IMG/VR virus record: IMGVR_UViG_3300042881_003883
Location: 19,930-83,929 of that record
Source of the DNA: a virus
Strand: one strand, 5' to 3'
Length of the DNA stretch: 64,000 nucleotides
Part shown: positions 19,274 to 47,159 of the stretch, piece by piece
How positions within the stretch are numbered: position 1 is the first letter of the stretch
Layout of the letters: each line of letters begins with the position of its first letter
Program-made: the position numbers and the translations under genes
The notes under the pieces: generated by a model
Told to the model about the DNA's origin: nothing
Seen by the model: only the letters and a program-made list of their open reading frames with translations
The model's database searches: none

Positions 19274-19275
19274 TA

Positions 19276-19322: not shown

Positions 19323-19331
19323 AAATAAAAT

Positions 19332-21668
19332 ATGGCAGAAAGAATTGTATCACCCGGAGTATTCACAAGAGAAAACGATTTATCGTTCTTGGCTCAGGGT
19401 ATCGGAGAAATTGGAGCAGCGTTTATAGGACCTTTCAAACAAGGACCTGCGTTTGTTCCCACAATCGTAAGAACACAATCAGAATTCGAAAACATTTTCG
19501 GAACACCTGATGGAACATACTACACAGAGTATGCGGTTCAAAACTATTTAAGAGAAGCAGGTACTGTGACTGTTGTAAGGGTAATGGATACCGGAGGATA
19601 TACACAAGCTACACCAATTGGTTTAGTTGCTAGTGGTTCTGCTGGTAAGAAATTAATCTCTACTATTCACTCAACCAACAATGGTGATGCTGAAGTAGGA
19701 TTTGGTCCATTTACTGTAACACCATCATTAACTATATCTGGTTCATTTGTAGTTTCTGGTTCTGGTATTGGTTTTGTATCATCATCTTTAGTTCCATCGG
19801 CAACTAATGATGTAAGTGATGTATTTGGTGAATCACCATTTGGTTCAAAAGATGGATATGTTTATTCATACTTTGAAAATGAAGCATCTGCATTTAATTA
19901 CAATACAAGCAATCCTGCTGGAGCAGTTGTAGCAATTGCATTACCATCTCAAGTATTTGGTGGTACTGATTTAGGATTAGGAGCACCTTCGCAAGCTGGA
20001 GCATCTCCTGCACAAACTCCTTATGTAAAATCACAACTTATTTCTGGTGAGAGATATGAATTATTCCGTTTCCATACATTAGGATATGGTAACAACGAAA
20101 ACACAAGATTTAAAATCGGTATTTCTAATGTGAAAGCAGCTGGTGAAGATGGAGCAACTGATTACTCTACATTCTCTGTATCTGTAAGAGCATACAATGA
20201 TACTGATAAGAGAAAATCAGTATTAGAAACATTTAACAACGTAAACTTAGACCCTGCATCTCCTAACTTTATAGCTAGAGTAATTGGTGATAGATTTATG
20301 ACAATTGATTCAACTGGTAAAATTACTGAATATGGTGATTGGTTGAATAACTCAAAATATATTAGAGTAGAAGTTAAAGAGCAAGGTTCATACCCTGTAT
20401 CAGCAGCACCATTTGGACATGGAGCTTATACTAATCCAATTGAAACAACAACAACAACACAGGCCGAATGGATACCTGCTGTTGTTTTCCAAACTGGTTC
20501 AGTAGATAATACTGCTGGTTCACCAATTTATTTTGCTGGTTTTGATTTCGAAACAATTGGTATTAAATTAGATAACGCTAATTATTTGGCACCATTACCA
20601 ACTACTAAAATTGGAGCAAACGTAGATTTCGGATTTGATTCTCAACTTACTTATGTAATGAGTGGTTCTGATTCAACTGATATGGCTAAGAGACAATTTA
20701 TATTAGGTTTCCAAGGTGGATTTAACGGACAATCTCCGGCAACTCCAATTAACTTAGGAACGGCAATATCAGCAGCTAACTCACAGGGATTTGATTTATC
20801 AACTTCTGTAGCTAGTGGATATGAGGCATACTCTAAAGCAATCAACGCAATTTCAAACGCTGATGAATATGATATCAATATGGTTGTAACTCCGGGTGTT
20901 ATTAGAAGATTACACACTCCGGTTACTACTAAAGTAATTGATATGGTTGAAGCTAGACAAGATTGTTTCTACATCGCTGATTTTAACGCAGCACCTGATA
21001 CAATAGCACAAGCTACTACTCAGGCAGCAGCAGTTGATTCAAACTACGCTGGTACTTACTACCCTTGGGTTAAGATGGTTGATTCAAACACTAACAAATT
21101 AATAAGTGTTCCACCATCAGTATTGTTACCTGCTGTGTACGCATCAAATGACGCTATTGCGGCTGAATGGTTCGCACCTGCTGGTTTGAATAGAGGAGGA
21201 ATCGTAGGAGCTGTTTCAGTTCTTAATAGATTAACACATTCTGAAAGAGATACTTTATATGAAAACAAAGTAAACCCAATCGCTTCTTTCCCTGGGCAAG
21301 GTATTGTAGCATTTGGACAAAAAACGTTGCAAGATAAAGCATCAGCATTGGATAGAATCAACGTAAGAAGATTATTGATTACCGTTAAAAAGTATATCGC
21401 ATCTACTTCTAGATTCTTAGTGTTCGAACAAAATACCGCAGCAACTCGTGGTAGATTTATCAACACTGTACAACCTTACTTAGAAGGAATTCAACAAAGA
21501 CAAGGTTTATACGCATTCAAAGTAGTTATGGATGAATCTAACAACACACCTGATGTAGTAGATAGAAACATTTTAGCAGGACAGATATTCTTACAACCAG
21601 CAAAAACTGCTGAATTTATTGTAATTGATTTCAATATCTTACCTACTGGAGCAAGTTTCTCAGCATAA
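19332..21668 (+). CDS. gp18: Tail sheath protein (T4 gp18-like)
   Basis: The contractile sheath subunit. It begins MAERIVSPGVFTRENDLSFL with a SPGV.T.E.D pattern typical of T4-like sheaths, followed by GAAFIGPFKQGPAFVPT and LREAGTVTVVRVMD. The C-terminal third contains the conserved sheath core: LDRINVRRLLITVKKYI, TRGRFINTVQPYL and FVVMDESNNT-like sequence, ending near FIVIDFNILPTGASF. At 778 residues it is longer than T4 gp18 (659), the extra length falling in the middle outward-facing part. The tube gene follows, the standard order. It has its own putative late promoter, upstream terminator and GGAG site, consistent with high expression. Confidence 0.95.
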   Translation: MAERIVSPGVFTRENDLSFLAQGIGEIGAAFIGPFKQGPAFVPTIVRTQSEFENIFGTPDGTYYTEYAVQNYLREAGTVTVVRVMDTGGYTQATPIGLVASGSAGKKLISTIHSTNNGDAEVGFGPFTVTPSLTISGSFVVSGSGIGFVSSSLVPSATNDVSDVFGESPFGSKDGYVYSYFENEASAFNYNTSNPAGAVVAIALPSQVFGGTDLGLGAPSQAGASPAQTPYVKSQLISGERYELFRFHTLGYGNNENTRFKIGISNVKAAGEDGATDYSTFSVSVRAYNDTDKRKSVLETFNNVNLDPASPNFIARVIGDRFMTIDSTGKITEYGDWLNNSKYIRVEVKEQGSYPVSAAPFGHGAYTNPIETTTTTQAEWIPAVVFQTGSVDNTAGSPIYFAGFDFETIGIKLDNANYLAPLPTTKIGANVDFGFDSQLTYVMSGSDSTDMAKRQFILGFQGGFNGQSPATPINLGTAISAANSQGFDLSTSVASGYEAYSKAINAISNADEYDINMVVTPGVIRRLHTPVTTKVIDMVEARQDCFYIADFNAAPDTIAQATTQAAAVDSNYAGTYYPWVKMVDSNTNKLISVPPSVLLPAVYASNDAIAAEWFAPAGLNRGGIVGAVSVLNRLTHSERDTLYENKVNPIASFPGQGIVAFGQKTLQDKASALDRINVRRLLITVKKYIASTSRFLVFEQNTAATRGRFINTVQPYLEGIQQRQGLYAFKVVMDESNNTPDVVDRNILAGQIFLQPAKTAEFIVIDFNILPTGASFSA

Positions 21669-21720: not shown

Positions 21721-22209
21721 ATGGCAGAAGTATTAGAATTTTCACAAATGATGTTTACCAACTTCGAACCGAAGATGAAGAACCGCTATATTATGGAGAT
21801 TGACGGAATTCAATCTTACTTAATAAAATCAGCGGCTAGACCATCTATCACTTTCGAACCGGTTAAACTAGACCATATCAACACTTATCGCAAATTGCAA
21901 GGTAAGGGAGAATGGCAGGACATTACAATAACATTGTATGACCCAATCGTTCCATCTGGAGCACAACAAGTAATGGAATGGGTTCGTTTAGGATATGAAT
22001 CGTTAACTGGTAGAAAAGGTTACGCCGATTTCTATAAAAAGGACATCGATTTCTATATGCTAGGGCCTGTTGGTGATAAAATCGAACAATGGAAGTTAAA
22101 AGGAGCATTTATTGTATCTGCTAACTTCGGAGATTTATCATTTGATTCAAACGATGCAGCTGATATCGAATTGACATTGGCTTATGATTACGCAATTTTA
22201 GAATTCTAA
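21721..22209 (+). CDS. gp19: Tail tube protein (T4 gp19-like)
   Basis: A 162-residue protein, the usual size for the T4 tube subunit (163). It starts with MMFTNFEPKMKNRYIMEIDG and contains SAARPSITFEPVKLDHINTYRKLQGKGEW, ITLYDPIVPSGAQQVMEWVR and a C-terminal ELTLAYDYAIL, all matching the gp19/gpV-like tube fold in T4-type phages. It forms the inner rigid tube through which DNA passes. Placed directly after the sheath and followed by a strong hairpin terminator, so sheath and tube form a short, highly expressed unit. Confidence 0.95.
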   Translation: MAEVLEFSQMMFTNFEPKMKNRYIMEIDGIQSYLIKSAARPSITFEPVKLDHINTYRKLQGKGEWQDITITLYDPIVPSGAQQVMEWVRLGYESLTGRKGYADFYKKDIDFYMLGPVGDKIEQWKLKGAFIVSANFGDLSFDSNDAADIELTLAYDYAILEF

Positions 22210-32232: not shown

Positions 32233-33498
32233 ATGGTTATAGTAGAGTCACAAACTGAAGTAACGGAGTTTTTAAATTTATGGAATACTAAGACATCCAT
32301 AATCATTCCAATATGGTCTGATTTGGAAAAGCATCCTATACATAACAAATTATCATTTCTATATGTTAGATTTGATGATAAGGACTTTATTGTACCATTT
32401 AACCATATTGATTGTAAGACTCCTACGATTGATTTGACTACTTCTAAGGAAGCAAAATGGGTAATCAACAAAAAGGGATTACTTCAATGTAATTTGGGTT
32501 TACAAAACCTAAATGATTTACAATCTGATGCATTTTTTCAACACAATAAATTATATCCGATAGGTTTTGAGGACCAACCATTTATAACTCACTATACCCG
32601 AAGAGGTATACGAGATAATTTGGGCAAGATAGCACCTATTATGAAATGGGGTGAGTATCTTAGAGTGATATCTTCTACTTTTACTATTGGTATAGAGAAT
32701 GATTGGGTTGGAGATTCGATGATTCCCCTTCTTTCAGATATAGAACATTTTGGTGTTCGGGTCGATAGGGAAAAATTTCTTGATAGATGGCCTCAAGCTT
32801 CTAAACATTTACACAACGATATCGTTTACACCCAATACAACCCATACACCATTACATCCCGTCCATCCAACCGATTTGGTGGAATCAACTTCTCTGCCCT
32901 AAACAAATCCGATGGTACGAGAGAGGTGTTTATCCCAAAACCAAACCACATATTCCTACAAATGGATTATGATGCGTATCATCCACGTATTATTGGTAAG
33001 TTGATTGGTTACGAATTACCCAAAACATCCGTACACCAATGGTTAGCTGACCAATATGGTTGTGAGTATGGTGAGGGTAAAGGAATTACGTTCCAATTAC
33101 TATATGGTGGTATACCTGAGGAGTTTGAGCAAATACCTTATTATAAGGGTGTTAAGGAGTTCATTGAGAAGTTGTGGGATAAGAGTACCAAAGCTGGATA
33201 TCTTCAAACACAACATAGGAGAATCCCCTTAGATTGGATTGAAGGAAACAATCCGCAAAAATTGTTCAACTACCTACTTCAAGCGACCGAAACCGAATTA
33301 AATATGGAAAGGGTAGCTAAAATATTGGAATTTATCAAAGATACCGATATAGAACTTTCCCTATACACATACGATTCATTCTTATTTTCATATCCTGCTA
33401 ATTCCGATGTATCTCAAGCTAAAAAGTTAAAAGAGATAGCTGAAGGTGGTGGATTCCCCATTAATGCTAGCTGGGGAACTGATTACTCGAAACTTTAA
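32233..33498 (+). CDS. Compact family-A (PolA-like) DNA polymerase
   Basis: 421 residues. The C-terminal half carries family-A landmarks: IEHFGVRVDREKF; a TSRPSNRFGGINFSAL segment in place of TGRLSS...NLQNIP; motif A MDYDAYHPRIIG (Asp245); O-helix motif K-x7-Y-G (Lys283, Tyr291); and motif C YDSF (Asp381). Both metal-binding aspartates are kept. Motif C has Ser where Pol I has Glu, and the O-helix Arg is missing. The N-terminal ~120 residues resemble the 3'-5' exonuclease domain in order of strands (SFLYVRFDDKDFIVPFNHID), but I do not see its DxE site, so proofreading is probably lost. It is half the length of a normal Pol I. It has its own host-type promoter. The phage also encodes a replicative PolB at 60207, so this enzyme likely does repair, gap filling or a modification-linked role. 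Confidence 0.75.
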   Translation: MVIVESQTEVTEFLNLWNTKTSIIIPIWSDLEKHPIHNKLSFLYVRFDDKDFIVPFNHIDCKTPTIDLTTSKEAKWVINKKGLLQCNLGLQNLNDLQSDAFFQHNKLYPIGFEDQPFITHYTRRGIRDNLGKIAPIMKWGEYLRVISSTFTIGIENDWVGDSMIPLLSDIEHFGVRVDREKFLDRWPQASKHLHNDIVYTQYNPYTITSRPSNRFGGINFSALNKSDGTREVFIPKPNHIFLQMDYDAYHPRIIGKLIGYELPKTSVHQWLADQYGCEYGEGKGITFQLLYGGIPEEFEQIPYYKGVKEFIEKLWDKSTKAGYLQTQHRRIPLDWIEGNNPQKLFNYLLQATETELNMERVAKILEFIKDTDIELSLYTYDSFLFSYPANSDVSQAKKLKEIAEGGGFPINASWGTDYSKL

Positions 33499-36454: not shown

Positions 36455-37276
36455 ATGTTAGTTAAAAAAGGTGATAATAACGAAAATGTAAAAAAATTAC
36501 AAGCAAAATTAGGTTTAACCGCTGATGGAGTTTTTGGTGCTGGTACTGAATCAGCTGTAAAAGCTTGGCAAACAAAAAATGGATTAACTGCTGATGGTAT
36601 CGTTGGTGATGCTACTTGGGAAAAGATGGGATTGGGTGCAAGTACTCCAACTCCTTCTGTTGCTGTACCAGCATCTTCATTTAAATTGGCAGCTCTTAAA
36701 GGACACGTTCCTGATTCTGTAATTGCTCAAATTCCAGACACTGCTTCTAAATTCAATATTACAACTCCTCTAAGATTAGCTCATTTCTTAGCACAATGTG
36801 GACACGAAAGTGGTGGATTCAAAGCCGTTACTGAGAATGTTAACTATTCAGCAGATGGATTAGTAAAAATCTTCGGAAAATACTTTAATTCAACAACTGC
36901 AGCTGCATATGCTAGAAACCCTGAAAAGATTGCATCTAAAGTTTACGCATCAAGAATGGGTAATGGTGATGAAGCATCTAAAGACGGATTTAAATTTCGT
37001 GGACGTGGTTATATTCAATTAACTGGTAAATCTAACTATACTAACTTCGCTAAATTCATTGGTGAAGATACTGTTGCAAATCCTGATTTGGTAGCAACTA
37101 AATATCCATTAGCTTCTGCTGCATTTTTCTTTGATTCAAATAAACTTTGGTCTATTTGTGATAAAGGTTTTGATGATGCTACTGTAACATCGGTAACTAA
37201 AAGAGTAAATGGTGGTACTATTGGATTAGCTGATAGAATCAAACACTTCAAAGAATACTATAACTTATTAAAGTAA
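36455..37276 (+). CDS. Endolysin: peptidoglycan-binding domain plus GH19 muramidase/chitinase-like domain
   Basis: 273 residues. Residues ~1-58 are a PG_binding_1 domain (VKKLQAKLGLTADGVFGAGTE, TADGIVGDATW). After a Pro/Ser linker, residues ~75-270 form a GH19-type catalytic domain: LAHFLAQCGHESGGF contains the catalytic Glu; YASRMGNGDEAS and FRGRGYIQLTGKSNY follow; AAFFFDSNKLW and VTKRVNGGTIGL are near the end. GH19 phage endolysins cut the glycan backbone of peptidoglycan. No signal peptide is seen, so a holin or other release system is needed. A small two-helix membrane protein lies 3.6 kb downstream. Confidence 0.9.
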   Translation: MLVKKGDNNENVKKLQAKLGLTADGVFGAGTESAVKAWQTKNGLTADGIVGDATWEKMGLGASTPTPSVAVPASSFKLAALKGHVPDSVIAQIPDTASKFNITTPLRLAHFLAQCGHESGGFKAVTENVNYSADGLVKIFGKYFNSTTAAAYARNPEKIASKVYASRMGNGDEASKDGFKFRGRGYIQLTGKSNYTNFAKFIGEDTVANPDLVATKYPLASAAFFFDSNKLWSICDKGFDDATVTSVTKRVNGGTIGLADRIKHFKEYYNLLK

Positions 37277-37285
37277 TATGGGGGT

Positions 37286-37305
37286 TGGTTTATTTAACTA
37301 AACCA
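37286..37305. terminator. Weak bidirectional hairpin between convergent genes
   Basis: TGGTTTA and TAAACCA with a 6-base loop, overlapping the stop codon of the minus-strand gene. It lies where endolysin and metallopeptidase-like transcripts meet. No long T run. Confidence 0.4.
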
Positions 37306-37745
37306 TAATATTCTATATTCTTAAGTGCGTTGTTAACCAACCAAGGTTCTACATTAGGTATTTTTGATAGGAATTCCAATTCATAATGATATGCTAATAT
37401 TTCCTCATAATTCGGAGGTAATTTTATGTTATGCTTTAAATAAAATAAATGTTTAGATTCATGCACTAATATAGCTGCTATGTTATTTATTGAATTAAAC
37501 CTCATATCTTTTTGGGATATCATTATGGTAACTGAATCTTCTGTTGTTGAAAAATCACCATCCCAATAGGTGATATGTTTACATACATCATTAATTAATT
37601 CATATTTATTAGGGTCAACTTGTTTTATTAGTGATAATGAAGTAGCTACCTTTGCTTTCCAATTATCACCAACATCATCGATTTTAATTTGTGAGTAACA
37701 ATCAAACACAAATAAAAAATTAATTAAAAGTAGAATCAGTTTCAT
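37290..37745 (-). CDS. Secreted HExxH putative metallopeptidase (only minus-strand gene)
   Basis: 151 residues. The N-terminus LILLLINFLFVFDCYSQ is a signal peptide with a Bacteroidota-type YSQ end. A lipoprotein reading at the Cys is less likely. The motif ILVHESKHLFYLKH contains HESKH, a zinc-binding HExxH. EEILAYHYELEFL, about 25 residues later, could supply a third ligand Glu. Its length suits a minimal zincin. The gene faces opposite to all its neighbours, so it may be a recent acquisition or expressed at a different time. An envelope or host-surface substrate is plausible. No homologous named family is recognised. Confidence 0.6.
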   Translation of the reverse strand: MKLILLLINFLFVFDCYSQIKIDDVGDNWKAKVATSLSLIKQVDPNKYELINDVCKHITYWDGDFSTTEDSVTIMISQKDMRFNSINNIAAILVHESKHLFYLKHNIKLPPNYEEILAYHYELEFLSKIPNVEPWLVNNALKNIEYYGLVK

Positions 37746-37795
37746 ATTTTATCAATAAATATTTAAAAAAGTTAGATAAAATTGTAATCGCTACA

Positions 37796-37803
37796 TATTT
37801 ATA
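37796..37803 (+). promoter_or_regulatory. Putative late promoter of the export island
   Basis: TATTTATA within ACATATTTATAGG, 20 bases before the ATG at 37824. It also lies upstream of the divergent minus-strand gene; on that strand the motif reads TATAAATA. Confidence 0.55.
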
Positions 37804-37823
37804 GGAAACATTATATAAAACGG

Positions 37824-39728
37824 ATGAAAAAACTATTATTTTTACTGCTGGTATCATTAGTACCAATCTTTGGGTATTCACAAACTTGCCCAACGCCAAC
37901 AACTTCTGGTGTTTTTATAACACTTGATTCAAATTATTTAGCTGGTACGGTAGCTGAAGGTTATACTAATGTAGGACTATGTTTTTACAACAATACAACA
38001 ACTGATATAACAGCATTTCAGTTTAGAGTTTATTATGATACACAAGCTTTCACTGGGGTAGACACACTTACTACATTGAATACAACATTTTCTCAGAACC
38101 TAAAATATGTTGATAATCCGGCTGCTGGTTATGTAACTGTCACAATGACTTATACTGGTAGTTCATCTACTTTTGAAATTCCAAATGGACCAATTGTTCA
38201 GTTGAAATTAACTCACGTAGCTGGATTTGCATCATTATCAACTATTGCTGATATGTCATTTGGAGCGGTAACTTATCCAGCAATTGCATCAAAGCAAAAT
38301 GGTATGGATAACGCACTTACATTACAAAACTTTGGTGGTAATATTATACCTCAAACAATGTCTTATCATGGTAAATTTAAGAACGTAACTGGAACAGCTG
38401 CTAAGAATTTAACTGTAGCTTTAGAAAAGAAACTTAGACCAAGTGGAGCTTGGACTCAGGTTACAACTGATATGACTGATATAAATGGTGACTTTGCATT
38501 TAATGCAATTGCAATTGATACAACTGGTTATGATGTTAGATTAAAAATACAGGGAGATACGTTATCAGTTGGTAATGTAATATCTACGGCAGATGCACAA
38601 AGAGTACAAGATTATGTATTAGGTACACAAGCACCAACTGGATTTGATTTTTACGCATCGGATGTTAATGGTGATAATGGTTTAAGTATATCGGATGCAT
38701 ATGGTATATTTGGTAGAATTTCTGGTAGATTCACCGCATGGCCTAATAGTGTTCAAAATGTAAAATTCTTTACACAATCTGAATATACTACTATTAATGG
38801 CTCAACAACCAATTATACATCAACAATTCCTGGTGTAACTAACTTTACGTTTAATATTGTTGCTGGACAACCTGATTCGGTTACATTCTATGTATTAGTA
38901 CCGGGTGATGCAAATGGAACGGGATATCGTATGGCACGTATTACTCCAATTGAGGTTTTAGTAGGACCACAACCTGGCGTTCCATCTCAAATTTACAATG
39001 TAATTGATGCTAGGGTAGAATATGATTTTCCAACAACTTCAATTGAAGTAAATGTTCCAACATTATCAGTTCAGGAAGGTAATTTAGTTAATATACCTGT
39101 AAAGGTATTAACAAATGGTACTGAGGTTGGTTCATTACAATTTGGATTAAAATACAACGATACTCTATTGGAATTTAAAGGAATTGAATCGAAATCAGCT
39201 ACTTCAAGTTGGTTAACATATTTGAATACTAATAATAATGAAATTTCTTGGGGTGGATATGATATTAGTGGTACACATATAAAACCATTAAGAGATGGTG
39301 ATGATGTTGTAACTTTAAAATTTATTGCAAAAAGACCTCAAGACCAATGGAGTACAAGTCCTCTTTGGACTACTAACAAATACGCTGGTAACAATCAATG
39401 TGTTGATTTAAGTATCACACCTACAAATGGTATTATACAGGTATTTAGAATGGCAAATGTTACTATTGATGAAATAGAGGGTATGCAAATATTCCCTAAC
39501 CCAACTGATGATTATGTTAACGTAAAATTTGAAGTTAAAGAATTTGGACCGGTTAGGTTATCAGTATATGGTCTTAATGGTATTGAATATAGGGTAGTAG
39601 TAAATGATAATATGCCTGAAGGTAATTACCAATACCAAGTTAGTTTAGGTAACTTAATTCCAGGTGTTTATGTTGCAGTTCTTAGAAAAACTACCAATAA
39701 CCTATCGAAAAAAATTATATTAAGATAA
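37824..39728 (+). CDS. Exported cohesin/dockerin-like protein with type IX secretion C-terminal sorting domain
   Basis: 634 residues. Order: signal peptide KKLLFLLLVSLVPIFGYSQ; a cohesin-like beta domain (~20-170); a carboxypeptidase-regulatory/Cna-B-like domain (~185-250) with DINGDFAFNAI; a dockerin-like region with ISTADAQRVQDYVLG and DVNGDNGLSISDAYGIF (Asp280 on); a segment starting FFTQSEYTTINGSTTN; a second cohesin-like domain (~405-545, LSVQEGNLVNIPVKVL...FGLKYNDTLLEF); and a C-terminal ~80-residue domain MQIFPNPTDDYVNVKF...GVYVAVLR...KKIILR (554-634). The last matches the Por/T9SS type A sorting signal, by which Bacteroidota carry proteins across the outer membrane and anchor them. 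The protein is therefore expected on the host surface, not in the virion. It lies under a late-type promoter. Confidence 0.8.
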   Translation: MKKLLFLLLVSLVPIFGYSQTCPTPTTSGVFITLDSNYLAGTVAEGYTNVGLCFYNNTTTDITAFQFRVYYDTQAFTGVDTLTTLNTTFSQNLKYVDNPAAGYVTVTMTYTGSSSTFEIPNGPIVQLKLTHVAGFASLSTIADMSFGAVTYPAIASKQNGMDNALTLQNFGGNIIPQTMSYHGKFKNVTGTAAKNLTVALEKKLRPSGAWTQVTTDMTDINGDFAFNAIAIDTTGYDVRLKIQGDTLSVGNVISTADAQRVQDYVLGTQAPTGFDFYASDVNGDNGLSISDAYGIFGRISGRFTAWPNSVQNVKFFTQSEYTTINGSTTNYTSTIPGVTNFTFNIVAGQPDSVTFYVLVPGDANGTGYRMARITPIEVLVGPQPGVPSQIYNVIDARVEYDFPTTSIEVNVPTLSVQEGNLVNIPVKVLTNGTEVGSLQFGLKYNDTLLEFKGIESKSATSSWLTYLNTNNNEISWGGYDISGTHIKPLRDGDDVVTLKFIAKRPQDQWSTSPLWTTNKYAGNNQCVDLSITPTNGIIQVFRMANVTIDEIEGMQIFPNPTDDYVNVKFEVKEFGPVRLSVYGLNGIEYRVVVNDNMPEGNYQYQVSLGNLIPGVYVAVLRKTTNNLSKKIILR

Positions 39729-39732
39729 TAAT

Positions 39733-39756
39733 ATGAGGTTACAAATGTGACCTCAT
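39733..39756 (+). terminator. Hairpin after the T9SS-type gene
   Basis: A 10-bp stem (ATGAGGTTAC with GTGACCTCAT, one G-T pair) and 4-base loop, but only a weak T-rich tail. It may cause partial termination before the membrane-protein genes. Confidence 0.45.
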
Positions 39757-39802
39757 AATTGTTATAATCAACTCAAAACAAATTAAACAAAAAAACAATA
39801 CT

Positions 39803-40126
39803 ATGTCAGAAGAAACAAACGCACCCGAATCAGAAGGAACTTGGTCAGGTTTAAAGAAAACAATTATTGGAACTCTATCAACTGCTGTATTAGCAGGTGG
39901 AACTTGGGTTACAACAACTCTATTTAATGGTGGAGATGATAAAGAAGAAACTAAAACAGAACAAGCTGCTCCAGCTGCACCTGTAATTATCAATCTACAA
40001 AATAATAACACTAATCAACAAAAACAATCGGGTGGTACAAATACAATTATTAAAGAAAAAACAATTGTAGAAAAACCTGCACCAGCTGCAGCACCTGCTA
40101 AACCAAAAGAAGAGGATTCTTGGTAA
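39803..40126 (+). CDS. Small single-span membrane protein
   Basis: 107 residues: an acidic N-terminus, one hydrophobic span (TIIGTLSTAVLAGGTWVTTTLF), then an Asn/Gln- and Pro/Ala-rich tail with a basic central stretch and acidic end. The topology (one span, long soluble tail) would fit an inner-membrane spanin-like or holin-accessory protein, given the endolysin upstream. No Cys or coiled coil needed for a typical spanin is evident, so the role stays open. The next gene starts 1 base after its stop. Confidence 0.5.
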   Translation: MSEETNAPESEGTWSGLKKTIIGTLSTAVLAGGTWVTTTLFNGGDDKEETKTEQAAPAAPVIINLQNNNTNQQKQSGGTNTIIKEKTIVEKPAPAAAPAKPKEEDSW

Positions 40127-40127
40127 T

Positions 40128-40847
40128 ATGAAAAAATTAATATTAATAATTTCTTCAATTTTATTATTTTCTATTGTTAGTAATGCACAAACAATTGGAA
40201 CTATTAAAACCGAAGAATATAAAGCTGATTTTGAAAAAAAACAATCTATTGCAGTTGTAGGTGACTATGATGGTGATATCGTTTTACCAATTCAAGTTTT
40301 AAAAATTGGTATTAACGAAGAACTTTACGAAATGTATCCTGAGTTAAAGGATAAGAGAGTTGGGCTTGGTGTTGCTAATATTGTTTTAGAATTCTTAGAG
40401 TCAACAGATAGATTTAAGTTTACTGAGGACCGTGAGGAGATTAAACAAAAAATGATTGCACAGGATAAGGCATCTGATAAGGGTATATCAAGTAATAAGA
40501 TAGAAGTGAAGGGTAATGTTATTTTAGCAAAATACTTCGTTTATATTGAGGTATATGACTTTTCAGTATCCGAAGATGAACAAATCAAAATGACTGATGG
40601 TTCAAAAACAACTCAAACAACTCGTTTGGGTTTACAGGTTAGATTCGTTGATGCTGAAACTGGTGAAATTATTACCGGTAGTGGTTTGGGTGAAGCAAGT
40701 ACAGTTAAAACTGCATCATTATTAGATGGTGTTGATGACATTAAATTTAACCAATCAACTATTGGTATATCAACTAAGAAAGCTCTTGAAACTGGAGCAT
40801 CTAGAGTTGTTTCAAAAATGATTAAAAAGGGAATATTTAAAAGTTAA
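40128..40847 (+). CDS. CsgG-like secretion-pore protein
   Basis: 239 residues with signal peptide KKLILIISSILLFSIVSNAQ. The mature part follows the CsgG/penicillin-binding-activator (LpoB-like) order: KQSIAVVGDYDG; GLGVANIVLEFLESTDRFKFTEDREEI; KVKGNVILAKYFVYIEVYDF; RLGLQVRFVDAETGEIITGSG; ISTKKALETGASRVVSKMI. CsgG forms the outer-membrane pore for curli. Here no Cys follows the signal peptide, so lipidation is unlikely. Phage CsgG-like genes are, I recall, found in some marine myophages, but no function is established. The gene is followed by three exported proteins, which could be clients or partners. Confidence 0.68.
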   Translation: MKKLILIISSILLFSIVSNAQTIGTIKTEEYKADFEKKQSIAVVGDYDGDIVLPIQVLKIGINEELYEMYPELKDKRVGLGVANIVLEFLESTDRFKFTEDREEIKQKMIAQDKASDKGISSNKIEVKGNVILAKYFVYIEVYDFSVSEDEQIKMTDGSKTTQTTRLGLQVRFVDAETGEIITGSGLGEASTVKTASLLDGVDDIKFNQSTIGISTKKALETGASRVVSKMIKKGIFKS

Positions 40848-40852
40848 ATATA

Positions 40853-41215
40853 ATGGGCAAAATAAGTGAATTTTTCGGTGGTAAATCTGATTATGTTAAA
40901 GTAGATGATAAAAATCGTTTCTATTTTATGTTGCAACAAATGCAAAATAATCGTTGGAGAATTACCGCAATTATATTAGGGTTATTTACCTTAATTATTG
41001 TTGGAATCAACTCTGGTGTATTTTTTGGTGTAGAAATTGGACAAGACTGGAAAGAAATGTTATTAATTTTATTAGGTGCCTTTGTTGGTAACTTAAATAA
41101 AGTTATAGATTATTGGTTCAACTCTGAAGATAGAGACAAAATGTTAATCCAAAAGGTAGATGAAGAGGATGGCGTATCTTTATCTAATACATTGGATTCG
41201 CAAGATGAAAATTAA
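40853..41215 (+). CDS. Two-span membrane protein, holin-like
   Basis: 120 residues. It has a cytosolic N-terminus with YVKVDDKNRFYFMLQQMQNNRW, a first span ITAIILGLFTLIIVGINSGV, a short loop FGVEIGQDWKE and a second span LLILLGAFVGNLNKVIDYW, then an acidic tail. Size and topology fit a class II holin or a related phage membrane protein. It lies in the lysis/export island. No known holin motif is clear. Its 3' end overlaps the next gene by 11 bases, implying coupled translation. Confidence 0.55.
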   Translation: MGKISEFFGGKSDYVKVDDKNRFYFMLQQMQNNRWRITAIILGLFTLIIVGINSGVFFGVEIGQDWKEMLLILLGAFVGNLNKVIDYWFNSEDRDKMLIQKVDEEDGVSLSNTLDSQDEN

Positions 41216-42422
41216 AAAACTTTTAATAACAATAAGTTTTTTGTTCTCTACTATGGTGGTGTTAGGACAAGGGTTCTCATATACATTTACAGACCCATGT
41301 ACCTTAAAATCCAAAGATATTTTTATTAATAGCCCAAATGGTAGCGTATCATTAATATATTCTGGGCAAATTCAAAGTTTTACTCAAACACAATTACAAT
41401 CCGGTGCATTAGAAAGTTGGATTAATCAAGTTAATGCGAGTAATCCGCAAGGTTCCGGCCCTTGTGGTGGTGTTGGTATAGCACAAAGTACCAATTTAAA
41501 TGTAACGGTTGCAGCTAATAATATAGCAGTGTTAACAAGCGTTATGTCAACCATGTCATCACTTTCATCTATAAGTGGAGCAGCTGGTTCAGCAATACAA
41601 GGTACAGTTCAGAGTAATGAAAAAGTCGCATCTAACGGCAATAAATCAGATGATAAAAATGGTACATCTGGTAGTTCATCGCAATCAACTAAATCAAAAG
41701 GAGAATCGGAAGAAAAAACAGGTGAAGAAAAAGCTGAAGAGGCTGTATCATCTTCATCATCTAATTCATCTCAGGTTAAAGCTAAAGTAGCAGCTGTTAA
41801 ACGTGGTAATATTATGATGACTGGTGATATTGTTACTATATCAAGTGCTTCTGGTAATGAACCACAACAACTTAAAATTAATATGAGTTTTATCACATCA
41901 AATACTGAGAATACATTTGCTAAAGGGGCTTTGGTAAATTATACTACTGCAATTGATAATTCTTGTATAACACTATTTGCAGCTTGGAGACGTAAAAACT
42001 TAACATCAATAGTTGCAAATTCATCTATGTTGAATTTTGAAAAGGATTATTTTAATACAACATCGATAATGGAATCGTATAAAATAAAAAAAATAACAGC
42101 AACGTTGGGAGTAAATTATACTACTGGTAATATTGGTGAATCCAAATTCCAAAGTTTATCAACTTTAGGCGGAGTTGTTGGTAATTTCGATGTAGGAAAA
42201 AAAATGAGTACTACATTGATGTTTGTTACAGTATATTCACCATTTGTATATTATTATGAAGGCATGTGGTATCAATCGGGACTATTAGCAGTTCCATTTG
42301 TTGCAATTGATTACAAGCTAACTCAGAAATTTAAAATGAACATCAGTTTTAGTGGTGTTCAACAATTTAAGAGTGATGCTATAAACTACCAAGTATTACT
42401 TGGTGCTAAAGCACTTTTATAA
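41205..42422 (+). CDS. Exported protein with putative C-terminal beta-barrel
   Basis: 405 residues from the ATG at 41205; an upstream in-frame Met would add a non-signal extension. It has a signal peptide KIKKLLITISFLFSTMVVLGQ, a Cys-containing N-terminal domain (TDPCTLKSKDIF, SGPCGGVG), a Ser/Lys/Glu low-complexity linker (~145-190), and a C-terminal ~200 residues of alternating amphipathic strands ending YQVLLGAKALL, as in outer-membrane barrels. Its place after the CsgG-like gene suggests a partner or client of that pore (inference). It may form a surface or outer-membrane structure in the infected cell. No family is recognised. Confidence 0.55.
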   Translation: MKIKKLLITISFLFSTMVVLGQGFSYTFTDPCTLKSKDIFINSPNGSVSLIYSGQIQSFTQTQLQSGALESWINQVNASNPQGSGPCGGVGIAQSTNLNVTVAANNIAVLTSVMSTMSSLSSISGAAGSAIQGTVQSNEKVASNGNKSDDKNGTSGSSSQSTKSKGESEEKTGEEKAEEAVSSSSSNSSQVKAKVAAVKRGNIMMTGDIVTISSASGNEPQQLKINMSFITSNTENTFAKGALVNYTTAIDNSCITLFAAWRRKNLTSIVANSSMLNFEKDYFNTTSIMESYKIKKITATLGVNYTTGNIGESKFQSLSTLGGVVGNFDVGKKMSTTLMFVTVYSPFVYYYEGMWYQSGLLAVPFVAIDYKLTQKFKMNISFSGVQQFKSDAINYQVLLGAKALL

Positions 42423-42423
42423 A

Positions 42424-42873
42424 ATGAAAAAATTATTATTACTATCTTTGATGTTAATCACATCATTAACTTATGGACAAAAATGCTACACTGTTAAAAA
42501 TGTAGAGAGTCTTGCTAAAATTGAAAATATAAATCCTAAAAGATTTACATTAGGTGTTAAACAAATAACTGAAGAAATTCTATCTGAAAAATATAGTATA
42601 TGTGAAGATGGTGAATCAGTAATGGTTGTTGTTAAGAGTATTGAGGCACCTACAACAAGTATTTCAATTGGACCATTTGAAAAGAAAAGAAAAGTTACTA
42701 TTGTGACTGTTGATTTAATTATTAATGGTAAAGTATATACTGGAATTGGTGAAAGTAAGACTGATGTAAAATCTACATTTATTGAATTGCAAGATGAAAA
42801 TATTCCATTTGAAAAATCAGCGTTTTCAGCTGCATTAAAAAAATCATTAATAAGTGCTATTAACCAAATGTAA
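42424..42873 (+). CDS. Small secreted protein next to the CsgG-like cluster
   Basis: 149 residues from the ATG at 42424. A signal peptide KKLLLLSLMLITSLTYGQ is followed by KCYTVKNVESLAKIENINPKRF and alternating strands with VMVVVKSIEAPTTSISIGPF and VTIVTVDLIINGKVYTGIGES. It ends with a helix FSAALKKSLISAINQM. A Cys is the second mature residue. The shape (beta sheet and terminal helix) recalls the small partner domains of LpoB/CsgG-type proteins, but this is only structural impression. It starts 1 base after the preceding stop, so it is co-translated with the cluster. Confidence 0.5.
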   Translation: MKKLLLLSLMLITSLTYGQKCYTVKNVESLAKIENINPKRFTLGVKQITEEILSEKYSICEDGESVMVVVKSIEAPTTSISIGPFEKKRKVTIVTVDLIINGKVYTGIGESKTDVKSTFIELQDENIPFEKSAFSAALKKSLISAINQM

Positions 42874-42874
42874 T

Positions 42875-44548
42875 ATGAGAAGATATCTCACCCTGTTATT
42901 ATTAATAATATCCAATATTGTATTTGCTCAAACATTTACATATTCGGGTTATATGTATAATGCGGGTGGATTACCAGCTCAAAATGTTGCTGTAAAATTA
43001 TATAAACGTACTACACCAACTCTTACTGGGTTTACATCACAAACCAATTATAACGGACACTCTTACTATCGTTCTACTGGTTCAATGACTTGGACTAATG
43101 CAAAGGTTGCTTGTGAAAATATGGGAGGTCACTTAGCTACCGTATCTAATTCAGCTGAGAACAATTTCTTATTTAATACATGGCCATCTGGTTGGATTGG
43201 ATATTATCAAGATAGAGTTTCTGGATATACTTATTCGGAAGCAGCTGGTGGATTTCGTTGGACAGAAACTAAAGTAACTGATGGATTGGTTGCTGATTAT
43301 GATGTTTCTTCTTATACATCAGGAACCACACTAACTGATATTGTATCTGGTATTAATTCTACATTATACAATACACCATCATACTCAAGTACTGGTGGGA
43401 AATATTTAACATTCAATGGAACTAATCAATACGCAATAACAAATAATTTAGCATCCAAATTTTCGAATAATAAAATAACTATAATGGCTTGGATATATCC
43501 AACCGGAAATGGAGTTATATCATCGGAATTAGGTGTTGGTAGTCCTACATCAGGTTGGCATGAATCAATAATGGAAATCACTGGAAGTAATACCCTTAGA
43601 GTTGGATTTTGGAATGGTAGTGGAATTACTCAATTAAGTACATCTATTACATTAAACGCTTGGCATTTGGTTTCTATTACTTATGATGGGGCATCAATGA
43701 AAGGATATTTAAATAATGTAAATTTTGGAAGTACTAATTTTACTAGAGATGTTCCGTATGTGTATTCGGGAAACGGACAATATTTCGCATTTGGATTAAG
43801 TGATGTTACTAATATGGGTTCTGGAGCTTATGGTAATTTTAGATTAGGTGATTATCAAATATTCAATAGAGCTATAACAGCCGATGAAATTGATAGAACA
43901 TATAACTTATATGCATATCGATATAAATTAAATCAATACACAAATTGGAATTCCGGAGAACCTAATAACTCACCCAGTGAAGATTATACACAATTTGTTA
44001 CAGGTGGTAAATGGAATGATTTAGGAAATACATCTTTACCTTATGTTATAGAATTTGATTATATTAACGATTTTACTCCATGGGTTTTACATCAAACAGT
44101 TTATACTAACTCTTCTGGATATTATTCATTTTCTCAATCAACCAATCCAGCAACCGAATGGTATATTCAATATGATATTCCAACACCTACAACACAACTA
44201 AGTACCAGTGATATTAATTCTATAATGTACAAAGTTATTAGTAATTCATTTAATGGATTAGATTATTATAAGTACGATGTAAATAATGATGGTGAAGTAA
44301 CTGTATCTGATGTTTATTATATTCATATGAAAAAAGTTGGGATGAAATCTATATGGGAAAATTCTTTACCAAATGTTAGATTATTTACCCAATCACAATA
44401 TAATATAATAAATTCATCAACTACTGATTTACGCCCTACCTATATAGGAACATCCTCAATTATAATAAATAATCCAACAAGTGGTGGAAGTTCAAATTAC
44501 TACTTAATTAATACCGGTTATTCTAATAGTACAACAATTTCGTACTAA
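42875..44548 (+). CDS. Secreted lectin with nested C-type lectin and LamG-like domains and a dockerin-like module
   Basis: 557 residues from the ATG at 42875, with signal peptide RRYLTLLLLIISNIVFAQ. Residues ~21-48 (YSGYMYNAGGLPAQNVAVKLYKR) look like the first half of a Cna-B-like domain. Residues ~60-130 (GHSYYRSTG..TWTNAKVACENMGGHLATV) are the first half of a C-type lectin domain. Residues ~137-345 form a LamG/concanavalin-like domain (ITIMAWIYPTGNG, WHLVSITYDG). At ~355-395 the lectin resumes with NWNSGEPNNSPSEDYTQF and KWNDL...YVIE. The Cna-B-like part then resumes (PWVLHQTVYTNSSGYYSF), followed by DVNNDGEVTVSDVY (Asp468, dockerin-like) and RLFTQSQYNIINSSTTD. The last part matches the protein encoded at 37824. 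No T9SS sorting domain is visible at the C-terminus. Confidence 0.75.
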   Translation: MRRYLTLLLLIISNIVFAQTFTYSGYMYNAGGLPAQNVAVKLYKRTTPTLTGFTSQTNYNGHSYYRSTGSMTWTNAKVACENMGGHLATVSNSAENNFLFNTWPSGWIGYYQDRVSGYTYSEAAGGFRWTETKVTDGLVADYDVSSYTSGTTLTDIVSGINSTLYNTPSYSSTGGKYLTFNGTNQYAITNNLASKFSNNKITIMAWIYPTGNGVISSELGVGSPTSGWHESIMEITGSNTLRVGFWNGSGITQLSTSITLNAWHLVSITYDGASMKGYLNNVNFGSTNFTRDVPYVYSGNGQYFAFGLSDVTNMGSGAYGNFRLGDYQIFNRAITADEIDRTYNLYAYRYKLNQYTNWNSGEPNNSPSEDYTQFVTGGKWNDLGNTSLPYVIEFDYINDFTPWVLHQTVYTNSSGYYSFSQSTNPATEWYIQYDIPTPTTQLSTSDINSIMYKVISNSFNGLDYYKYDVNNDGEVTVSDVYYIHMKKVGMKSIWENSLPNVRLFTQSQYNIINSSTTDLRPTYIGTSSIIINNPTSGGSSNYYLINTGYSNSTTISY

Positions 44549-44553
44549 TGTTA

Positions 44554-44561
44554 TATTTATA
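44554..44561 (+). promoter_or_regulatory. Putative late promoter of the transpeptidase-like gene
   Basis: TATTTATA within TTATATTTATAAAA, 19 bases before the ATG at 44581. Confidence 0.5.
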
Positions 44562-44580
44562 AAAACAGAATAAAAAAATT

Positions 44581-45180
44581 ATGGCAAAGTACACAAAAGA
44601 ACAAATTGAAAAAGCAGTTAAATCAAAAGGATACGTTTGGTTTGAAGATGCTTCTAACAAAGGATTTGATTTAAACATCGTAGGTATCAGAAATTCATCA
44701 ACCGGTACAAAGGTTACTAACGTATTTGATGATGCAATTTCAGTATCATATAAAGATGGTGGTAATTGGATTTACAAAGAATGGGTAAACACAACCGACC
44801 CTGGTACAAAGGGAGTTAAAGAATATCATAATGCAGCTGGAGTTGCTCGTTTAGTTCCGGGTCAATATAGAGGTTCACATACATTGGGATTACATCAAGG
44901 TAAATACGAAGCACTTAAACAACAAAAGCCGGTTAAGGTTTATAGAGATGCTAATAGAGATATGAACTATGATGAAACCAAAATCCAAGAAGGTATCTTT
45001 GGTATCAACATCCACAAAGCTGGAGCAGATTCAACTTATGTTGAAAATTGGTCTGAAGGATGTCAAGTATTCAAAAAAGCAGCTGATTTTGAAGAATTTA
45101 TGGTTATTACGAGAAAATCAGGTGCAATACATGGTAAATCGTTTACATATACATTAATAGAATCGAAAGATATTGTTTAA
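44581..45180 (+). CDS. L,D-transpeptidase-like peptidoglycan-acting protein
   Basis: 199 residues. The central part RGSHTLGLHQGKYEAL, then GIFGINIHKAG and VENWSEGCQVFKKA, has the His...(S/T)xGC order of YkuD-like L,D-transpeptidases and related phage wall hydrolases, with Cys in EGCQVF as the likely nucleophile. YkuD enzymes act on peptidoglycan crosslinks. In phages such domains probably cut or edit the wall. It has its own late-type promoter and terminator, so it forms a single-gene unit at the end of the lysis region. Lack of a signal peptide suggests the same release route as the endolysin. Confidence 0.6.
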   Translation: MAKYTKEQIEKAVKSKGYVWFEDASNKGFDLNIVGIRNSSTGTKVTNVFDDAISVSYKDGGNWIYKEWVNTTDPGTKGVKEYHNAAGVARLVPGQYRGSHTLGLHQGKYEALKQQKPVKVYRDANRDMNYDETKIQEGIFGINIHKAGADSTYVENWSEGCQVFKKAADFEEFMVITRKSGAIHGKSFTYTLIESKDIV

Positions 45181-46325: not shown

Positions 46326-47159
46326 ATGGCTATTAATTTAGATGCAATTAGAGGTAGACTAAACAAACTACAAAACACTGGAAGTACAAAAAACAATCTT
46401 TGGAAACCAGCAAATGGTAAGACTCAAGTGAGAATCGTACCTTACAAGTTCAACAAAGAAAATCCTTTTATCGAACTTTATTTCCACTACAACATTAACA
46501 ACAAATCTTATCTATCTCCGATGTCTTTCGGAAGACCTGACCCAATTGTTGAGTTTGCTGACAAACTTAAACGAATGGGTGATAAGGAAGATTGGAAAGC
46601 TGCTAAGAAAATGGAACCGAAGTTGAGAACATTCGTACCTGTTATTGTAAGAGGTGAAGAAAACGAAGGAGTTAAATTTTGGGGATTTGGTAAGACGGTT
46701 TATCAGGAAATCTTAGGTTACATCGCTGACCCAGATTATGGAGATATTACCGACCCAACAACTGGTAGAGATATCACTATTGATTATGTATCAGCTGAAG
46801 ATGCAGGAACTTCTTATCCTGTAACTACAATTAGAGTTAAACCAACTCAAACTCCTATTTTGGAAGATTCTGAAAAATTGAAAGCAGCAATGGAAGGTCA
46901 AACTAACATTACTGATATCTATCAGGAACTTTCTTACGCTGAATTAAAAGGTGTATTAGAAGGGTGGTTGAATCCAACTGGTGATGAAGGTTCTGAATCA
47001 ACTTCACAATCAACATTATCAACACCGGCTCCGGCTCCACAATCGGCACCAGCAGCAGCTCCAATTAAAAATGAAGCATTCGCCGCTACACCAGCAGTTG
47101 AGGAACGTAAGAAAATGGATGATGTAGCATCAGCATTTGATGACTTATTCAACAACTAA
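46326..47159 (+). CDS. gp32: Single-stranded DNA-binding protein (T4 gp32-like)
   Basis: 277 residues. It has a basic N-terminus (INLDAIRGRLNKLQNTGSTKNNLWKP), then an OB-type core with GKTQVRIVPYKFNKENPFIELYFHYNI and FVPVIVRGEENEGVKFWGFGKTVYQEIL, and an acidic tail ending MDDVASAFDDLFNN. This is the gp32 layout, with the tail used to contact other replication proteins. It is a little shorter than T4 gp32 (301). I do not see the Cys-His zinc knuckle of T4 gp32. It lies 15 bases before uvsX, its known functional partner. Two promoter types upstream suggest expression through the whole infection. Confidence 0.88.
   Translation: MAINLDAIRGRLNKLQNTGSTKNNLWKPANGKTQVRIVPYKFNKENPFIELYFHYNINNKSYLSPMSFGRPDPIVEFADKLKRMGDKEDWKAAKKMEPKLRTFVPVIVRGEENEGVKFWGFGKTVYQEILGYIADPDYGDITDPTTGRDITIDYVSAEDAGTSYPVTTIRVKPTQTPILEDSEKLKAAMEGQTNITDIYQELSYAELKGVLEGWLNPTGDEGSESTSQSTLSTPAPAPQSAPAAAPIKNEAFAATPAVEERKKMDDVASAFDDLFNN

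Follow-up and report, generated by a model that had tools for sequence, protein, structure and literature searches.

A conserved phage gene module of predicted exported proteins, often found beside the endolysin gene, and its candidate role late in infection

Why would a phage carry, next to its endolysin gene, a run of genes whose products appear to leave the cytoplasm? The question is raised by a 64,000-nucleotide stretch of viral DNA (hereafter the window), which covers bases 19930-83929 of the 147,929-base IMG/VR virus record IMGVR_UViG_3300042881_003883. Its genes place the source virus among the contractile-tail phages, with matches to tail-sheath families at 19332 (phrog_23, 1.8e-72) and to a tail tube at 21721. 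An earlier note on this DNA described a cluster of six exported-protein genes at 37290-44548 and proposed that they remodel the surface of the infected cell late in infection, perhaps for superinfection exclusion, cell aggregation or help in lysis. We find that five genes of this region, named COH, TM1, G, F and E, form a core that recurs in related contigs, from phages of Flavobacterium-like bacteria. The module is real and conserved, appears to be specific to phages and is probably expressed late; since its core often lies beside an endolysin gene, it may help the virus to alter or open the outer surface of the cell late in infection.

A five-gene core linked to the endolysin gene

Relatives of G were collected from viral contigs by two scans, one queried with the window G and one with the G of a second locus (L084). 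The scans gave 193 and 147 relatives, of which the best 80 each were kept, so that the counts below describe samples. The genes around 161 G copies were labelled with profiles derived from the first set; 108 of these copies have long flanks, and dereplication at 90% G identity left 35 loci. One locus (L002) was dropped as a duplicate of L046; three contigs are present twice (L150/L014, L151/L016 and L156/L040), and their repeats are absent from the 35 loci.

All 35 dereplicated loci carry E, F and a COH-type gene within seven genes of G, and 33 of them carry TM1. The two TM1 misses may be gene-caller artefacts, as an overlapping reverse frame is sometimes chosen. The remaining members are more variable, with a LEC-type gene in 22 loci and an exported nuclease in four. 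The order of the core also varies: a frequent arrangement in a second clade is LYS-E-COH-lipoprotein-like gene-TM1-G-F, and in the second locus set the lipoprotein-like gene precedes TM1 in many loci.

The endolysin gene of the window, LYS (36455..37276, plus strand), encodes a peptidoglycan-binding domain and a glycoside hydrolase family 19 (GH19) domain and has no signal peptide (PF01471, 2e-14; PF00182, 2.2e-9; phrog_181, 1.1e-70). A LYS-family gene is located no more than seven genes from G in 24 of the 35 dereplicated loci and in 72 of the 108 long-flank loci. Among 304 genes located more than ten genes away we found no LYS, three copies of c8 (a membrane protein that is holin-like by topology only) and three of the nuclease family; these control genes all come from the fetched flanks, and the control is therefore a local one. 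The LYS gene is placed upstream on the same strand in nine loci, downstream in ten, upstream on the opposite strand in four and inside the module in one. On a quick tree of G, a minimum of 12 changes is required for the five LYS states (four positions and absence) and of 8 for presence against absence. The core stays together while LYS moves round it. Either HOL, a second short membrane protein, or c8 occurs in 26 of the 35 loci, and at least one of LYS, HOL, c8 and the spanin-like c32 in 32 of them.

Export signals in the module

Signal peptides were called with a crude home-made rule, in a strict version for the window and in a looser one across the 35 loci. Under the strict rule COH, G, F, E and LEC pass, with one false pass (HOL) among the 52 window genes; 36 of 2080 shuffled proteins pass as well. 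The sixth gene of the cluster, MP, on the minus strand at 37290, fails the strict rule (an Asp precedes the cleavage site), and a signal peptide fits it by eye. All six genes are present where the earlier note had placed them, and the signal-peptide predictions hold for five of the six under the home-made rule rather than failing for most.

Under the looser rule, signal peptides are called in G (35/35), F (34/35), E (34/35), COH-type proteins (39/39), LEC (22/23) and MP (11/11), compared with 14 of the 304 genes more than ten genes from the module; related sequences are not independent observations in these counts. The looser rule also passes HOL (14/15), c8 (2/14) and TM1 (2/33), so it cannot separate signal peptides from membrane anchors. 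In the part of the record outside the window there are two convincing exported cases, one CpeT-like and one endonuclease-G-like, and four further weak passes, and by this crude screen the proposed rarity of export signals elsewhere in this phage holds for the 148-kb record.

Both of these proteins deserve a short description. The first is a CpeT/CpcT-family protein with a signal peptide (L087:13343-14029, record positions 117143-117829; PF06206, 9.4e-22). The endonuclease-G-like protein is encoded far from the island (L088:5219-5818, record positions 128819-129418), and its relatives are found inside or beside the module in L017, L065, L075, L079, L081, L082, L046, L047 and L063.

Cohesin and lectin proteins

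COH (37824..39728, plus strand) encodes a predicted exported protein of 634 amino acids with a cohesin domain (5.7e-11), a dockerin-like segment and a C-terminal sorting domain of the type IX secretion system (T9SS). The T9SS tail scores above the cut-offs of two libraries (PF18962, 38.1 bits against 27; TIGR04183, 26.6 against 23), which bears out the earlier description of a T9SS-type protein in the cluster. COH thereby combines the two features by which T9SS type A cargo was recognized, a signal peptide by the home-made rule and a sorting domain above cut-off. Its tail is the only one of its kind found in the 148-kb record, and it is kept in all 25 long COH relatives sampled. The COH alignment comprises 24 of these 25 long representatives and the copy from L083; in several loci, including the cultured phage immuto described below, COH is split into two genes.

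LEC (42875..44548, plus strand) encodes a C-type lectin, predicted to be exported, in which a LamG domain is nested and whose C-terminal part is dockerin-like. The nesting proposed earlier is borne out: when the window protein and the L017 copy are aligned, residues 1-117 and 355-557 are matched and LamG lies in between. The recognition domains detected at E <=0.1 differ among the 41 LEC relatives (Lectin_C in 33, LamG in 12, GEVED in 4 and PA14 in 2). LEC and COH have a common region that includes the dockerin-like segment (hhalign probability 99.6). The dockerin matches themselves are below cut-off (0.0014 for COH and 0.11 for LEC), one loop is degenerate by eye, and only 9 of the 41 LEC relatives reach E <=0.1. 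Hypervariability of the lectin was considered and is not claimed, because LEC relatives have diverged from the window copy (31-76% identity) to much the same degree as those of F (21-75%) and E (35-74%). We also looked in the record for a reverse transcriptase able to diversify the lectin and found none.

These two proteins underlie the main rival to a role in lysis. Here COH would display LEC on the infected cell, perhaps via cohesin-dockerin docking, and LEC would cover receptor glycans, which amounts to receptor masking or superinfection exclusion. In some phages an exported nuclease would in addition destroy incoming DNA, and the late timing would keep progeny off debris. The sorting tail kept in every COH relative sampled, the differing recognition domains of LEC, the dockerin-like part common to both proteins and the exported NUC1-type nuclease near G in four loci (PF01223, 2.3e-17 for the L017 copy) all suit this idea, and the combination of a lectin, a surface anchor and an occasional exported nuclease keeps it alive. 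On the other side, expression looks late, no receptor is known, the dockerin matches are weak, and the endolysin linkage, TM1 and G are left unexplained. We regard masking as a live possibility, albeit one that we would bet against.

Predicted folds of G, F, E and TM1

G (40128..40847, plus strand) encodes an exported protein that shows the highest conservation among the members aligned, at 77% mean column identity (23 of 26 representatives aligned). The structure model of G (predicted local distance difference test, pLDDT, 56.6) contains long strands. CsgG or curli-complex entries fill the first 19 rows of a Foldseek search with this model (best E 1.9e-8). The VIA comparison gives CsgG at Z 12.8 (root-mean-square deviation 3.9, 162 aligned) and other CsgG rows at 11.1-12.6, with Cj1090c among them (11.5) and LptE and PelC next at about 10; given how closely these proteins follow, the fold family of G is surer than its exact function. 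In a library of viral structures the best match is a phage protein annotated as CsgG (2e-7), followed by lower-scoring matches, many of them recombination proteins or unnamed. On the evidence of its model, G has the CsgG fold, and it may be either a periplasmic ring or a pore.

The earlier description of a CsgG-like protein is thus upheld by the model fold and does not extend to the sequence of the window protein. Window G has no match to PF03783, which is reached at E <=1 by three of 23 relatives (best 1.9e-4); its short alignment with E. coli CsgG scores 19.4, barely above the 18.9 obtained from 40 shuffles; and neither G by itself nor its profile retrieved anything in sequence searches of the PDB. 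A lipobox-like Cys near the start is present in seven of 35 G representatives and is lacking in window G.

F (41205..42422, plus strand) encodes an exported protein whose small N-terminal domain contains two invariant Cys residues (43 of 44 representatives aligned). In its model (pLDDT 63.4) this domain is followed by a long helix and then, beyond a disordered stretch, by 12 long strands at residues 202-404. The best VIA matches are the NalP autotransporter (Z 20.6), the KdgM porin (16.8) and FapF (16.1). As autotransporter barrels, porins and FapF head the matches, F is the surer outer-membrane protein, predicted to form a 12-strand barrel; the outer-membrane barrel suggested earlier is supported by this model.

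E (42424..42873, plus strand) encodes an exported protein of 149 amino acids with an invariant cysteine near the mature start, and it is probably a divergent relative of G. With signal peptides removed, the E-G hhalign comparison scores 35.5 (probability 69; 29 in the reversed direction), compared with at most 18.1 in 40 column shuffles; the probability is 96 when signal peptides are included. Matches of E in the PDB (ribosomal protein S1 and two marginal rows) and scattered Pfam matches of 35 E relatives were judged to be due to chance.

TM1 (39803..40126, plus strand) encodes a membrane protein with one span by pattern. Two lysines precede the span and acidic residues follow it, and then comes a tail rich in Pro, Ala, Gln and Asn that is predicted to be periplasmic. 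The last residue is Trp in all 33 aligned copies (the alignment used 33 of 41 representatives) and in 143 of 143 labelled ones. The only profile match is to phrog_2658, 'hol-like', at 0.0027, and no clear coiled coil is seen by eye. A C-terminal Trp like that of TM1 also occurs in a 50-residue single-span protein that ends in KQPW (L084:9492-9644; also in L090 and L091).

The folds of G and F are the sole basis of a second alternative, in which one or both of them would export the subunit of a cell-clumping adhesin or fibre in the manner of curli or Fap secretion, leading to 'sibling capture'. CsgG structures are the first matches of G, FapF is among the matches of F, and curli gene sets with CsgG, CsgF and CsgA/B are described for pelagiphages (PMC9599517). 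Set against this, we recognized no gene for a CsgA/B-type fibre, and no such domain was reported among the island proteins. Alignments of F and E to single E. coli CsgF and CsgE sequences score 8.8-14.8, within the range of shuffles, and no Pfam match of the CsgF/CsgE type was obtained for window F and E or for the 35 E relatives. F also resembles the NalP barrel more than FapF. Overall, we judge fibre export to be unlikely.

Phage origin of the module

A tblastn search with G (E <=0.01) against 50,697 phage records found Immutovirus only, at 78% identity. The matching named phages are strains of Flavobacterium phage immuto (Immutovirus), whose host is Flavobacterium sp. LMO8. In immuto the genes for LEC, a COH split in two, TM1, G, F and E follow one another without interruption; this phage differs from the window in having no LYS-family gene within seven genes and in the location of the module near ribonucleotide-reductase and nuclease genes. 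In immuto, G and F are annotated as hypothetical proteins, and a look-up of five terms in a study of phages from Baltic Flavobacterium strains, LMO8 among them (PMC7077304), turned up no mention of T9SS, lectin or mass spectrometry.

A scan of bacterial genomes, which used two peptide patterns of G only, found two records with G, both metagenome-assembled. One (L083) carries the whole module and the other (L084) most of it, beside the endolysin gene. In the family to which the Flavobacterium bin belongs, 299 genomes yielded one clear G match, on the same phage-like contig, and one further match that is marginal and short (0.005, 38 positions). Being all but absent from the bacterial genomes examined, G looks like a phage-specific family.

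This distribution bears on the proposal that the genes are inherited passengers, host-like exported genes that hitch-hike without a joint function. Cohesin, lectin and T9SS-tail domains are common in surface proteins of Bacteroidota, and gene order and extra genes do differ between loci. Nevertheless, the core survives in divergent loci while its neighbours change, and G is both highly conserved and nearly absent from host genomes, which makes the passenger proposal very improbable. We give even less weight to lectin and cohesin proteins acting as particle-borne adhesins, since the consistent signal peptides and the T9SS tail do not fit cytoplasmic assembly of virions, even though LEC has tblastn matches to a Synechococcus phage baseplate/virion protein (3e-5) and, over the LamG part, to a hypothetical protein (1e-8), and long fibre-like genes (by eye) adjoin the module in some loci.

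Late motif and transcript organization

A putative late-promoter motif, ATATTTATA, is located at 37795..37803 on the plus strand, 29 bases before the COH start. It has 13 matches in the window against 4.45 expected, a number reached by 1 of 100 shuffles, and nine of the 13 lie at most 130 bases upstream of a plus-strand gene. The genes that it precedes include those for the tail sheath, the baseplate hub, COH and LDT, together with some of unknown role. A second upstream motif, of the TATnTTTG type, which we take to resemble host promoters, is found before several genes, including that for the DNA polymerase at 60207. Examples of the two classes are at 19275, 37795 and 44553 for ATATTTATA and at 32233, 45771 and 60207 for the TATnTTTG type. 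Judging from these motifs, the module is probably expressed late. RNA families at the gathering threshold and tRNA genes are both absent from the window.

The cluster had been thought to be mostly under a single late-type promoter with tight spacing. The motif upstream of COH agrees with this, as do the gene spacings from TM1 to LEC (1, 5, -11, 1 and 1 bases); the gap between COH and TM1 does not, as it spans 74 bases and contains a strong predicted RNA hairpin (plus strand, about 39725..39765 with the core at 39733-39756; -19 kcal/mol, z -7.2). The hairpin is present at the same place in five close relatives (L016, L017, L021, L031 and L034), with compensatory changes by eye; possible roles are RNA processing and partial termination.

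Neighbouring lysis-related genes

HOL (40853..41215, plus strand) encodes a short membrane protein that is near the module in 15 of the 35 dereplicated loci. It is called holin-like from its hydrophobic pattern and place only; it has no holin-family match in the profile libraries and no tblastn match in the phage collection. The c32 protein, spanin-like by pattern and place, has a weak holin match (0.0014). In some loci, spanin-like genes, with an N-terminal span and a coiled coil by eye, also lie in the TM1-G or the G-F interval.

LDT (44581..45180, plus strand), the last gene of the region that opens with LYS, has its own late motif and, like LYS, lacks a signal peptide. It is a probable peptidoglycan enzyme by its matches (phrog_3000, 1.5e-36; phrog_33083, a lysis family, 3.9e-12 and partial, a match to an endolysin family), and it is near the module in four of the 35 loci. 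MP (37290..37745, minus strand), found near the module in 11 of the 35, encodes an exported protein of 151 amino acids with an HExxH motif (HESKH). The HES-x-H pattern is present in 21 of 21 representatives, and the matches to DUF2268 and WLM reach E values of 0.13 and 0.28 only; a zinc protease is possible.

A repetitive protein of about 310 residues, rich in Ala, Gly, Val and Glu, without a signal peptide and ending in NPKNWF or NPRNWF, is encoded in L049 (8956-9912) and in relatives; in L049 it adjoins a spanin-like gene between TM1 and G. A fibre role was considered for c33, an unassigned repetitive protein of some relatives; it has no signal peptide and is near the module in 7 of 108 loci.

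A candidate role in virus egress

The reading that we favour, tentatively and at somewhat less than even confidence, is a late, lysis-linked module for envelope remodelling and egress. COH, G, F, E and LEC would be produced by the phage late in infection and exported through the Sec system of the host. The host T9SS would then move COH to the cell surface and anchor it there, F would enter the outer membrane as a 12-strand barrel, and G and E would build a CsgG-type ring at or in this membrane. TM1 would stay in the inner membrane, with its Pro-rich tail crossing the wall and docking via the terminal tryptophan. Once the wall has been breached by the endolysin, this set of proteins across the envelope could open or weaken the outer membrane, and COH and LEC at the surface could alter what released virions or competitors can bind.

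This egress reading builds on linkage and predicted geometry. What we observe is gene content, conservation, predicted export, the T9SS tail, the model folds, a putative late motif and endolysin linkage; from these we infer the assembly, contacts and action of the module proteins. Besides the conserved core, the endolysin linkage, the holin-like and spanin-like neighbours and the near-absence of G from bacterial genomes, two points count in its favour: the predicted places of the proteins span the inner membrane, the periplasm, the outer membrane and the cell surface, and the late motif is common to the module and to the tail-sheath and baseplate-hub genes.

Several observations weigh against it. 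Eleven of the 35 loci, the cultured Immutovirus included, have no LYS-family gene within seven genes, and the 12 LYS-state changes on the G tree, which may include losses, are fewer than the mean of 19.1 for shuffled labels, so the LYS position is partly inherited. A second holin-like and spanin-like pair of small membrane proteins lies about 40 kb from the module in the record, and lysis may therefore be served there; it consists of a c8-type membrane protein and, next but one, a coiled-coil protein with an N-terminal span (L086:18433-18666 and 19328-19645), the latter matching phrog_2658 'hol-like' at 5e-7, and it is perhaps another lysis pair. Neither HOL nor c8 matches a holin family. One copy of ATATTTATA precedes the gene for a single-stranded DNA-binding protein at 46326, which means that the motif class is not purely structural, and across loci the enrichment of a late motif is modest (TATTTAT is found ahead of the module in 18 of 35 loci, compared with 18 of 96 other genes). 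The G and F models are of low to middling confidence. In CsgG, the transmembrane hairpins form a 36-strand barrel; at the first hairpin site charged residues make up 8 of 28 positions in G against 3 of 21 in CsgG, and at the second 6 of 31 against 6 of 25, in segments picked by eye, so that G is the more charged at the first site only and a G pore is one candidate rather than an observation. Finally, a T9SS-anchored cohesin protein and a lectin are not needed for lysis alone.

The egress and masking readings are compatible. They can be joined in one more speculative scheme, which we hold to be rather improbable: a TM1 strut, a CsgG-fold ring of G and E and the F barrel would join into a single trans-envelope complex, acting in place of spanins or alongside them and coupled to a T9SS-exported COH scaffold that carries LEC by cohesin-dockerin docking, so that the cell is opened and its receptors are masked in one late programme. 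With regard to the surface remodelling first proposed, our results support a conserved, surface-directed and probably late unit, as well as help in lysis, given that 24 of 35 loci have the endolysin gene no more than seven genes from G; exclusion and aggregation neither gain nor lose.

Comparison with known systems

Bacteroidota are a major phylum of bacteria of the sea, lakes and the gut, and the host of the cultured relative immuto is a Flavobacterium. To our knowledge, the exit of Bacteroidota phages through the outer membrane is poorly known, and a search of an open-access library on spanins and Flavobacterium brought up nothing relevant. The combination of genes in the module was likewise not recognized in searches of that library, judged by titles and the openings of abstracts; subscription papers and preprints were outside its scope. 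Phage CsgG genes and phage T9SS cargo are already in print, each separately.

CsgG and CsgF are reported in pelagimyophages (PMC7029224) and, together with CsgA/B, in pelagiphage podoviruses (PMC9599517). They are also reported in Melnitz, a phage of OM43, for which control of lysis is suggested (PMC9004378). The roles proposed for such genes are lysis control, superinfection defence and sibling capture (PMC9004378, PMC7029224, PMC9599517). These phage curli (type VIII secretion) genes likewise bring together a CsgG-type protein and partner genes, but have no detectable sequence match to G (in the tblastn search described above). The partners here are different, namely a predicted 12-strand barrel, the G-like E, TM1 and a cohesin protein with a T9SS tail, with an adjoining endolysin in 24 of 35 loci. 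Phage genes with a T9SS sorting domain, presumed to be exported by the host, are described for Cryophage (PMC7468147); these are three variable proteins (an endoglucanase, a glycoside hydrolase and a PA14 protein), whereas the module has one conserved cohesin protein in a recurring setting.

Individual proteins show similar mixtures of likeness and difference. F resembles FapF, the functional-amyloid exporter of Pseudomonas, and the translocator barrels of autotransporters in its predicted 12-strand barrel preceded by a helix; unlike them, it has no sequence-family match and has a long disordered stretch between helix and barrel, and no Fap genes were recognized. TM1 is comparable to spanins and class III holins in its one span and its Pro-rich, predicted periplasmic tail, with spanin-like genes nearby in some loci; it differs from them in the absence of a family match and of a clear coiled coil, and in its invariant terminal Trp.

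The most useful results are the five-gene core, its endolysin linkage and a cultured phage that carries the module. The core is testable, being found around 161 G copies (some contigs counted twice) and in one cultured phage group. It offers a second case of the published puzzle of phage-borne CsgG, one with no detectable sequence tie to the first and with the gene often beside an endolysin, and it points to a phage that uses the host's own surface-export route.

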